From contig NZ_BJDT01000001.1 in NCBI RefSeq assembly GCF_005405285.1, forward strand, positions 34,726 to 98,725: a DNA stretch of 64,000 nucleotides. Reading direction: 5' to 3'. Source of the DNA: Weissella sagaensis (lineage in GTDB: Bacteria > Bacillota > Bacilli > Lactobacillales > Lactobacillaceae). A model generated the notes under the pieces. The model was given only the letters and a program-made list of their open reading frames with translations, was not told where the DNA came from and did not search any database. Shown piece after piece: positions 17,262 through 26,303 of this stretch; the first letter of the stretch is position 1; the number at the start of each line of letters is the position of its first letter. The translations under genes and the position numbers were made by a program.

Positions 17262-17701
17262 GTTATTTTCTCTTTTCTAGCAATTTTTGAATTTCAGGGT
17301 TTATTGAGAAACATAGCATGTTAAATAATAGATATTCTTTATAGTAGTTTGTAACTTGCGTAGATGTTACAGCTGCTCTTTATTTGGTAAAAGTTATTTA
17401 ATTAAAAAAGACGGGAAATCTAGCCCATACCGGATTATGCCGTGATTATACAAACCTTTTTTCCAAAGTTATCGAGCTTAATAAAGAATTTCTGATGTAT
17501 TTAAAATTGTAATGTACTCACTCATAACATCATTTTATGAACATAAAAATAAAAGATGTAATGGTATACATCTTCGTCGACGAACTTACATTACGCTGTT
17601 ATATGCCGTAATTCAAGAAATATTCTGTGAACATTGTGAAGAAAAATAGTATAAAAAAGCATACCGGTATAATTATCGGTATGCTGGCATGGATCATAGA
17701 T
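17262..17701. other. 440-bp intergenic region, no gene recognised
   Basis: This AT-rich spacer contains the FNT promoter region. Around 17545-17590 there is an imperfect dyad (GATGTAATGG...TTACATTAC), and at 17658-17685 the terminator of rlmH. No ORF with a ribosome binding site was found on either strand. Confidence 0.6.
17658..17685 (-). terminator. Terminator of rlmH
   Basis: AGCATACCG / CGGTATGCT hairpin with six A on its left, which are T on the minus strand, 17 bp after the rlmH stop. Confidence 0.85.
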
Positions 17702-18181
17702 TTATTTATGATATGGTGTGTGGGCGTTAATCATAAATCCTCGATAGATTTGTTCAGTTAAGACAAGACGCATCAATTGATGTGGCAAAGTAAAACGTCC
17801 AAAACTAATTTGCGTATTGGCACGCTTTAAAACTTCAGGTGATAATCCTAAAGAACCACCAATGATAAATGTTAAATCTGATTTTCCTTGAACGGTTAAA
17901 TGTTCAATTTCAGCAGCAAGTTCTTCACTAGAACGTTCAGCTCCTTTGATAGCTAGTGCAAACACATATTCTTTATCTTTAATTTTACTTAGAATGCGTT
18001 CGCCTTCTTTACCCATGACTTGGTCCATTTGCGCTTGCGAAAGTTGTTCAGGTGCTTTTTCATCTGGTACTTCAATAATGGATACTTTTGCAAATTTATG
18101 CAATCTCTTAGTATATTCAGCTATGCCATCCTTTAAATATTTTTCTTTTAGCTTACCAACGCCAATAATTTTTATGTTCAT
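17702..18181 (-). CDS. rlmH: 23S rRNA (pseudouridine1915-N3)-methyltransferase RlmH
   Basis: A 159-residue SPOUT methyltransferase, exactly the usual family length. It opens with [23 protein letters not shown] and contains [10 protein letters not shown] (SAM-binding knot, about 105-114) and the C-terminal knot segment [28 protein letters not shown]. It methylates pseudouridine 1915 of 23S rRNA in the assembled ribosome. SD AAAGGCG precedes ATG 18181. In many Firmicutes rlmH lies close to the replication origin, which matters for the DnaA-box region directly upstream. Confidence 0.96.
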
Positions 18182-18237
18182 TTGTTTGTTCGCCTTTCTA
18201 TAAAAAATAATTGATTTTTAAAATTTATTTGTTTAAA

Positions 18238-18852
18238 TGTGGATAAATAGCGAAAATCATATTAAAAATAAGGTTATCCACAAGTTACTAACAGGTTTTA
18301 AAACAACTATAAACATTATTATATCAGACCTTTTAAAGGTTTACGTTAACATTTTTACCTATTTATACACAGTTGTGTGTTATGTCTGTGCATAACTTTT
18401 AAAAAGTTATCATAACAGTATTTGTAAACGCTACATTAAATGAATTTTCCCTAATATAAGAATAGTTATAAAAAGTTATGCACAGACTAGATTTCATATT
18501 TGTGATTTATTAACAAAATATATAACTTGTTTAAAAGAAAAATATTCGATTTTAGCAATTTATCTCCCCTTTTTTAGTTGATTTAATAATAGTAAAACGA
18601 TTTAAACACATATTATTTTTGAAAAAGTATGGTAAATTTTATTAAAAGCCTAAAATTTAATAAGGTTTAACCTAATTTTAAGTTAAAACCCTAATTTAAT
18701 AGTGTTTTGCTTTATTTGCTTCTTTTAAACAGGTTATCCACATTGAGGTATTGGTTGATTTAACAAGGTTTTCTTTGGAAAAAACGTAAGTTATTAACAG
18801 GTTATCCACAGATGACGGTGGAATACGTGGACTTTTCCTCCATTTGTCCACA
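18238..18852. other. DnaA-box cluster; candidate oriC or DnaA-binding region
   Basis: Exact TTATCCACA occurs at 18274-18282, 18734-18742 and 18802-18810 on plus and at 18238-18246 on minus. TTATNCACA variants lie at 18363-18371 (A), 18476-18484 (G) on plus and 18387-18395 (G) on minus, and a one-mismatch TTGTCCACA at 18844-18852. That is seven sites matching TTATNCACA in 573 bp, far above chance. Between 18485 and 18733 is a box-free, very AT-rich stretch with TAATAATAGTAA, a plausible unwinding segment. The region is noncoding between divergent rlmH and ktrB. dnaA itself is not in the window. Confidence 0.72.
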
Positions 18853-18884
18853 AAAATCTGTGAAAAACTTTTGTGTTCCTCCTG

Positions 18885-18890
18885 TATAAT
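18885..18890 (+). promoter_or_regulatory. -10 box of ktrB promoter
   Basis: TGTATAAT (extended -10, TATAAT at 18885-18890) lies 26 bp upstream of the ktrB start. No good -35 box is seen. The weak DnaA box at 18844 lies just upstream. Confidence 0.55.
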
Positions 18891-18916
18891 GTAAATATGT
18901 TGGGAGATACTTAATT

Positions 18917-20260
18917 ATGAAAAAAATATTTAGCAAATTAACGCCACCACAGATTTTAACGCTGGGATTTTTGGTTATTATATTTGTTGGTGCTTTTGTA
19001 TTAAGGATGCCGATATCACAACAACCAGGTGTACATGTTAACTTTATGAATGCATTATTTACGGCAGTTTCAGCTACGGCCGTAACGGGATTAACGGTTG
19101 TTAATACTGCGACGACTTGGTCATTATTTGGTCAGATTATCTTGCTTATTATGATAGAGATTGGTGCTTTAGGATTTATGACGTTTGCAGTGTTGTTATT
19201 TGCGCTTACCGGCCAACGTTTGGATTTGAAAGCCCGTTTAATGGCGCAGCAGGCCTTAAATCTTAGAAATTTAGCTGATGTTAAAAGTGTGTTATCATAT
19301 GTGTTTTCATTGTCAGCCATTATTCAATTAATTGGCGCATTTTTGATGCTACCTGATTTTATACCACGCTTTGGTCTGACCAAAGGTATTTATCTCAGTG
19401 TGGCTTCATCGATTTCATCATTTGGAAATGCTGGTTTTACATTTTTTGATAAACCAGTCTCTTTCTTACAAAATGATCCGTATATTTTGATTATTTGGAT
19501 GTTGCTGATTACAGCTGGATCGCTTGGTTTCTTAGTTTGGCGTGATCTGTTATTGTTTTACAAACAACGACGCGTCAGCTTACATACTAAAGTTGCCATT
19601 CACGTGTCTGGTTGGTTGATAGGTATCAGTTTTGTTCTATTCCTTATTACTGAAAAAATTTTAGCACCACTTATGACGACCACCTCTTTTGGTAATCGTA
19701 TCGTGGATAGTTTGTTTTTAGCAGTTGTACCAAGAACCGCTGGATTAGAGGTCATACCGCTATCTAATTTATCTGCTGCGGGAATTATGATTATTACCTT
19801 TTTAATGTTTGTTGGTGGAACGCCAGGATCGACATCTGGTGGTATTAAAACGACAACACTAGGTATCTTATGGATGCAGTCAATGGCGGCGTTACGTGGT
19901 CAAGAGCAAGTGAACTTTGGCGGCCGACGTTTTAGTCAAAAAATTGTGATTAAGGCGATGATGTTAGCGGTTATCTCAATTGTTTTTGTGGCAGTTGTTT
20001 CATTGTTGTTAACGATTACTGAAACAATACCGAAAGGACAAGGTTTAGAATACATTGTTTTTGAAGTAATCTCAGCATTTTCAACGACTGGTTTTTCTTT
20101 GGGGCTAACTCCTCATCTGACAGAATTTGGAAAAGTTGTGATTATGATTGTCATGTTTATCGGTCGTGTTGGTTTGTATACAGTTATGTTTTCTGTCATG
20201 AATATTCGTGACAAGCCACGTAAATTCCAATACCCGACTGAAGAAGTCATTATTGGCTAG
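18917..20260 (+). CDS. ktrB: KtrB/TrkH-type potassium uptake membrane subunit
   Basis: A 447-residue membrane protein built of four M1-P-M2 units. The selectivity-filter segments are readable: SATAVTGLTVVNT (about 53), SSISSFGNAGF (about 170), VVPRTAGLEV (about 272) and ISAFSTTGFSLG (about 390). The internal GGTPGSTSGGIKTTT loop is the gate region of KtrB. Together with KtrA (2516) it forms a Na+-dependent K+ uptake system. SD GGGAG precedes ATG 18917. It is the first gene to the right of the DnaA-box region. Confidence 0.94.
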   Translation: MKKIFSKLTPPQILTLGFLVIIFVGAFVLRMPISQQPGVHVNFMNALFTAVSATAVTGLTVVNTATTWSLFGQIILLIMIEIGALGFMTFAVLLFALTGQRLDLKARLMAQQALNLRNLADVKSVLSYVFSLSAIIQLIGAFLMLPDFIPRFGLTKGIYLSVASSISSFGNAGFTFFDKPVSFLQNDPYILIIWMLLITAGSLGFLVWRDLLLFYKQRRVSLHTKVAIHVSGWLIGISFVLFLITEKILAPLMTTTSFGNRIVDSLFLAVVPRTAGLEVIPLSNLSAAGIMIITFLMFVGGTPGSTSGGIKTTTLGILWMQSMAALRGQEQVNFGGRRFSQKIVIKAMMLAVISIVFVAVVSLLLTITETIPKGQGLEYIVFEVISAFSTTGFSLGLTPHLTEFGKVVIMIVMFIGRVGLYTVMFSVMNIRDKPRKFQYPTEEVIIG

Positions 20261-26287: not shown

Positions 26288-26303
26288 AGTTTCATGTGAA
26301 ACA
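26288..26303. other. parS-like site 1
   Basis: AGTTTCATGTGAAACA matches TGTTTCATGTGAAACA, a variant of the ParB-binding consensus, except at the first base. It lies one base after the purine permease stop. Confidence 0.6.

Follow-up and report, generated by a model that had tools for sequence, protein, structure and literature searches.

When DnaA boxes crowd into a noncoding gap away from dnaA, do they mark an origin of replication, or a site that acts on an origin from elsewhere? The question is raised by the gap between rlmH and ktrB in Weissella sagaensis, which lies in a 64 kb stretch of contig C1 (the window, C1:34726-98725; the assembly comprises 29 contigs and 1,934,584 bases). The usual place of oriC in Firmicutes is beside dnaA and dnaN. 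A first-pass annotation of the window offered two readings, an oriC that is split from dnaA or an accessory cluster that binds and titrates DnaA, and named the position of dnaA and the GC skew as ways of checking them.

Seven DnaA boxes between rlmH and ktrB

The gap (18182..18916; 735 bp, 25% GC) is flanked by the two genes first named for it, as their Pfam matches bear out. On one side lies rlmH (17702..18181, minus strand), which encodes a SPOUT methyltransferase, YydA in B. subtilis (PF02590, E 4e-57), and on the other a gene for a KtrB/TrkH-type cation transporter (18917..20260, plus strand; PF02386, E 1e-51). The PF02590 product, RlmH, is 97% identical to its Weissella hellenica counterpart. 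B. subtilis YydA is assigned to the YbeA family, COG1576 (PMC1829167), and this is the family of the rlmH product here. A known structured RNA in the gap was ruled out, there being no Rfam match at the gathering score across 17500-19000.

Seven perfect TTATNCACA sites span 573 bp of this noncoding DNA (C1:52963-53535), in the place first given for them. The exact consensus TTATCCACA accounts for four of the seven: 18238..18246 (minus strand), about 57 bp upstream of the rlmH start; 18274..18282 (plus), which overlaps a possible rlmH -35 element, read by eye and not reported by the promoter scan; 18734..18742 (plus); and 18802..18810 (plus). The other perfect sites read TTATACACA at 18363..18371 (plus) and TTATGCACA at both 18387..18395 (minus) and 18476..18484 (plus). 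One-mismatch boxes are also present, for example TTATTAACA at 18791..18799 (plus), 11 bp ahead of the 18802 box, and TTGTCCACA at 18844..18852 (plus), upstream of the likely ktrB -10 element, which by eye is the TATAAT at 18885-18890. The middle of the cluster (18485..18733) is free of perfect boxes and AT-rich, as described before; it measures 249 bp and is 79.5% AT.

Could the boxes have come together by chance in AT-rich noncoding DNA? The whole window holds TTATNCACA at these seven places only, and seven is the number expected by chance (mean 6.83). The signal is therefore clustering, not number. In 5000 dinucleotide shuffles of the 735-bp gap the mean was 0.063 sites and the maximum 2, against the seven observed, and the same place upstream of rlmH is strongly enriched over shuffles in two sets of loci (below). 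We regard a chance grouping as next to impossible.

The origin of replication lies at dnaA

The dnaA gene was found at C1:23583-24995 on the minus strand (PF00308). It is thus true that dnaA and dnaN are outside the window, though dnaA lies only about 10 kb beyond its left edge and about 28 kb left of the cluster, a position that speaks against an oriC at the cluster and for an accessory role. The gene order around dnaA is the usual one, with recF, dnaN and dnaA followed by rnpA and yidC (all but dnaA named from their sequences). Over the 218,725 bases of C1 examined, the GC skew flips sign at about 24 kb, near dnaA, and does not change at the cluster (about 53 kb). It is negative in each of the first six 4-kb bins and positive in 48 of the 49 that follow, the exception being 80-84 kb, with a weak value (0.01) at 48-52 kb. 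Within the window, 30 of 32 2-kb bins are positive (exceptions at 14-16 kb and 46-48 kb). In the dnaN-dnaA gap, (TAA)5 is followed by GGGG and then by a one-mismatch and a perfect DnaA box (C1:23452-23488), a layout that we take to be the basal unwinding element arrangement of B. subtilis. The oriC of this genome is the dnaN-dnaA gap together with the gap upstream of dnaA, C1:23.4-25.5 kb.

The cluster does share one property with this oriC, namely clustered TTATCCACA sites, four in each, and its AT-rich middle carries TAATAATAGTAA at 18584, the motif that had been pointed out there. It could on these grounds be proposed as the chromosome's oriC or as a second active origin. Unlike oriC, however, the cluster shows no change of skew sign, no trio with GC spacer and box, and no adjoining dnaA or dnaN. 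The TAATAATAGTAA is followed by a one-mismatch box, TTAAACACA at 18602, which is oriented opposite to that of oriC and comes without a GC spacer, and this trio-like run is not conserved in the aligned sequences of other Weissella species; the motif is there, its origin-like arrangement is not. As the skew change, the trio-GGGG-box arrangement and the usual gene order all lie at dnaA, an origin at the cluster is very improbable, and the idea of an oriC split from dnaA is not upheld.

The five parS-like sites reported for the window were found again, each with one or two mismatches to the consensus, at 26288, 38102, 39160, 54462 and 63070. By the same consensus, others lie at C1 20125, 32848, 113029, 133587 and 181464, giving ten sites with at most two mismatches in 218,725 bases, one of them exact (C1:133587). 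One lies to the left of dnaA and nine to the right.

Conservation of the cluster in Weissella

An rlmH match was present in 27 other genomes of the genus. One of these, G306, is 66% complete with a fragmented rlmH and was set aside, leaving 26 usable loci, some of them probably of the same species as loci of the named set described below. Every one of the 26 has at least one perfect box and 24 have at least four, with a median of seven. Individual positions are kept to varying degrees: a perfect TTATNCACA lies within 15 bp of the 18238 site in 19 of the 26 loci, of 18274 in 11, of 18363 in 18, of 18387 in 12, of 18476 in 9, of 18734 in 12 and of 18802 in 15. In the set-aside genome (L239-L240), six boxes occur elsewhere in each stretch examined.

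In the alignment, several boxes stand out as footprints and the AT-rich middle is poorly conserved. The 18802 box is the best conserved footprint of the cluster, with GTTWTCCACAG in all ten aligned Weissella and Periweissella rows; the column holds a perfect box in six of these and TTTTCCACA in four. Within the poorly conserved middle, AGGTTTAACCT (18663-18692) is kept in four close Weissella rows and is perhaps a protein site; a more variable AAGTTAAAACCCT directly follows it. The distance between the rlmH cluster and dnaA is 6 to 55 kb in those congeners, nine of twelve, in which it can be read directly on one contig.

Conservation of the cluster across Bacilli

Two wider sets of loci were compared. 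The named set consists of the best 80 of 289 rlmH relatives and is mostly Lactobacillaceae. The class set holds 120 of the 291 rlmH-bearing genomes among 299 of the class, and combines the 30 best matches with 90 hand-picked over families, so that it is not random. Perfect boxes occur in the 1 kb that precedes rlmH in 77 of the 80 named loci, and number three or more in 58. In the class set at least one is present in 68 of 120 loci, with at least three in 38, one or two in 30 and none in 52. The boxes are concentrated at this place. The named loci have 284 in the 1 kb upstream of rlmH (80 kb in total), against 97 in the other 1.40 Mb, and in the class loci the two 250-bp bins before rlmH have 4.8 and 1.7 boxes per kb, against 0.27 or less elsewhere. 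In the 700 bp upstream, observed counts exceed shuffled means about 56-fold in the 80 loci (273 versus 4.9) and about 44-fold in the 120 (198 versus 4.5). The pattern read backwards gave 3 and 7 matches in the two sets, and a scrambled pattern 2 and 3. The commonest spacings of same-orientation pairs are 12, 19 and 13 bp, as raw counts taken without a null.

Other ORF-free stretches of the 80 named loci, 136.6 kb in all, hold 17 boxes. Six of the 17 belong to W. halotolerans, in two groups of three TTATNCACA that lie downstream of the rlmH start by 5.2-6.0 and 7.4-7.6 kb.

The cluster is widely, not universally, kept in the Bacilli loci sampled. By hand count, none of the 33 loci sampled from families f9, f11, f12, f26, f33 and f38 has a box, 18 of them being from f26, which is over-represented among the 30 best matches. 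One of the 52 class loci without boxes, L195, has its cluster displaced beyond 1 kb. Distance from dnaA was read by hand for 39 of 54 genomes: boxes are present in 21 of 30 genomes with rlmH less than 80 kb from dnaA (mean 2.6 boxes) and in 6 of 9 with more than 100 kb (mean 1.4), a comparison in which the near group is flattered, since the genomes left out, five of family f3 and ten others, include box-less ones near dnaA. All ten of those others are without boxes, and two of them, G183 and G238, have rlmH about 44 and 70 kb from dnaA.

In three f3 genomes rlmH is about 3 kb from dnaA, so that in these oriC probably all but adjoins rlmH. A Streptococcus locus (L092) has one box 56 bp before rlmH and seven more 2.2-4.0 kb upstream.

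A likely B. subtilis counterpart of the cluster is already known, and it may be the breadth of conservation that is new. In the literature searched on DnaA-box clusters we found no report of this breadth or of persistence beside changed neighbours; Okumura 2012 and Washington 2017 may discuss conservation.

The cluster persists beside changing neighbours

In 152 of 201 loci an htrA match stands upstream of rlmH and ends no more than 1.3 kb from it, and two htrA products checked by Pfam have trypsin and PDZ domains. W. sagaensis itself gave no htrA match in the 218,725 bases of C1 that were searched. The boxes are kept whether the neighbour is ktrB, as here, a HAD hydrolase gene (W. muntiaci) or dnaB (Periweissella). 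Gene order alone does not carry them, nor is the site always present: 33 of the 201 loci lack boxes although htrA is adjacent to rlmH. In one locus (L046) htrA is 9 kb off and the boxes are still at rlmH. In two others (L155, L180) htrA is likewise separated from rlmH and no cluster was found, and the whole of the L063 locus is free of boxes. Control of ktrB was rejected as the ancestral role, a KtrB-type gene being nearest upstream in 10 of the 201 loci (the 26 congener loci are outside this count).

In three loci the cluster has been separated from rlmH. L037 has five boxes at -1996 to -1658, with an IS605-type gene between cluster and rlmH; L061 has four at -2122 to -1820, with queT and other ORFs between; and L195 has four at -2515 to -2335, with ktrB and a KtrA-like ORF between. 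None of the three has a perfect box in the last 1 kb ahead of rlmH. In each the cluster follows the htrA match and the inserted genes point towards it, so that convergent genes flank it. L037 may have gained its insertion recently, and the htrA there is split into two overlapping frames; the boxes of L061 are overlapped by a 107-codon ORF of doubtful worth. We take these displaced clusters as natural separations of the boxes from their gene and, few as they are, as pointing to a function of the DNA itself rather than to regulation of an adjoining gene.

A likely counterpart in B. subtilis and a proposed role

The cluster has a likely counterpart in B. subtilis. DnaA was found in vitro to bind eight prominent regions of the B. 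subtilis genome, one of them upstream of yydA, where seven sites gave an apparent Kd of 0.16 uM with ATP-DnaA (PMC4447404). Removal of six clusters outside oriC leads to early initiation (PMC5295017, PMC13220808), which one cluster restored at various places partly relieves (PMC5295017). As two of the eight regions are in oriC, we infer that the yydA cluster is one of the six. The cluster described here shares with it the place directly upstream of the rlmH gene, seven DnaA sites and an oriC at dnaA, and has several boxes in a noncoding gap outside oriC, as an extra-origin cluster does. The far-side neighbour differs, being ktrB here and yycS there. B. subtilis has six clusters, whereas this genome has one consensus group besides oriC, and binding is observed in vitro for yydA and predicted from sequence for Weissella.

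Our preferred reading, to which we give a probability of roughly 0.75, is that the boxes in the gap form a cluster outside oriC which corresponds to the yydA (rlmH) cluster of B. subtilis, and which would titrate DnaA and so delay re-initiation. The second option of the first-pass annotation thereby gains support from the yydA match and from conservation. In the model that we propose, the cluster is tightly bound by DnaA. Lying 28 kb from oriC, it would be copied soon after initiation, and its high-affinity sites would double. The doubled sites would then draw DnaA off oriC and lower free DnaA, so that the next initiation would be delayed. By analogy with B. subtilis, the Weissella cluster would be a negative control of initiation.

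The main task of DnaA at this place might instead be to regulate the transcription of rlmH, and in Weissella that of ktrB, with the cluster as an operator region and titration as a side effect. The box nearest to the rlmH start has a median distance from it of 48 bp (IQR 42-72) in 66 class loci and 63 bp (IQR 42-251) in 77 named loci, box orientation is skewed in two locus sets (143 to 55 and 219 to 54), and the 18274 box overlaps the possible -35 noted above. DnaA regulation is also listed for B. subtilis yyzF-yydABCD (PMC8203912). However, the boxes reach 200-650 bp upstream of rlmH, and in the three displaced loci the cluster lies 1.7-2.5 kb from the gene between convergent genes. We therefore consider transcriptional control unlikely as the main role. 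Titration is favoured over local gene control because the cluster persists beside different partners and between convergent genes, and where a box lies 40-70 bp upstream of the rlmH start, DnaA probably exerts some control on that promoter as well.

By what means Gram-positive bacteria, which do not have the devices of E. coli, keep free DnaA in check is an unsettled question. In E. coli, datA is a noncoding site outside oriC that binds DnaA, lowers its active form and works with IHF; in datA and DARS, sites for IHF (or Fis) lie among the DnaA boxes. The likeness of the Weissella cluster to datA would be one of function, as a noncoding DnaA locus outside oriC. B. subtilis is described as being without IHF and datA, and tenfold overproduction of DnaA did not cause over-initiation there (PMC13220808). 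With six clusters in B. subtilis, each is hard to study singly. If titration at rlmH is true, a clean test of it by a single deletion would be possible in a species that has one main cluster, retained by many relatives and despite changes of neighbour, and the conservation would indicate which one of those in B. subtilis is old.

Weight of the cluster within genomes

How much of a genome's stock of boxes does this one place hold? The W. sagaensis assembly has 27 TTATCCACA sites (13 for the pattern read backwards), four of them at oriC and four at the cluster, and no other 1 kb holds two. The looser TTATNCACA occurs 125 times (87 backwards). In two congeners with single-contig assemblies (G307 and G318), consensus sites number 6 and 8 at rlmH against 3 and 4 around dnaA, and there is no further group of three. 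Two more (G300 and G322) have groups at rlmH and dnaA plus two others each elsewhere. A fifth (G302) has 15 consensus boxes, none grouped at dnaA or rlmH, and one perfect TTATNCACA remains before its rlmH.

It is tempting to go further and see in the htrA-rlmH cluster an ancestral control of initiation in Bacilli, independent of the flanking genes, which as the sole consensus cluster outside oriC in some Weissella, this one included, would make up a single-locus DnaA titration circuit. We hold this wider reading tentatively, rating it lower because the rlmH cluster is often small outside the genus and other clusters are larger. Consensus sites in the rlmH region there number 2 in G279, 3 in G013, 1 in G137, 2 in G088, 0 in G205 and 2 in G110; near rlmH of G205, which is of the same family, no TTATCCACA was found. 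Groups elsewhere are often larger than at rlmH (G088, G110, G279).

Among the matches listed for the part of C1 that was read, the place with the next highest density of TTATNCACA is C1:126675-127514, with four sites. It lies outside the window, between prenyltransferase-like and transporter-like ORFs (named by a look at their sequences), and three of its four sites fall within 60 bp.
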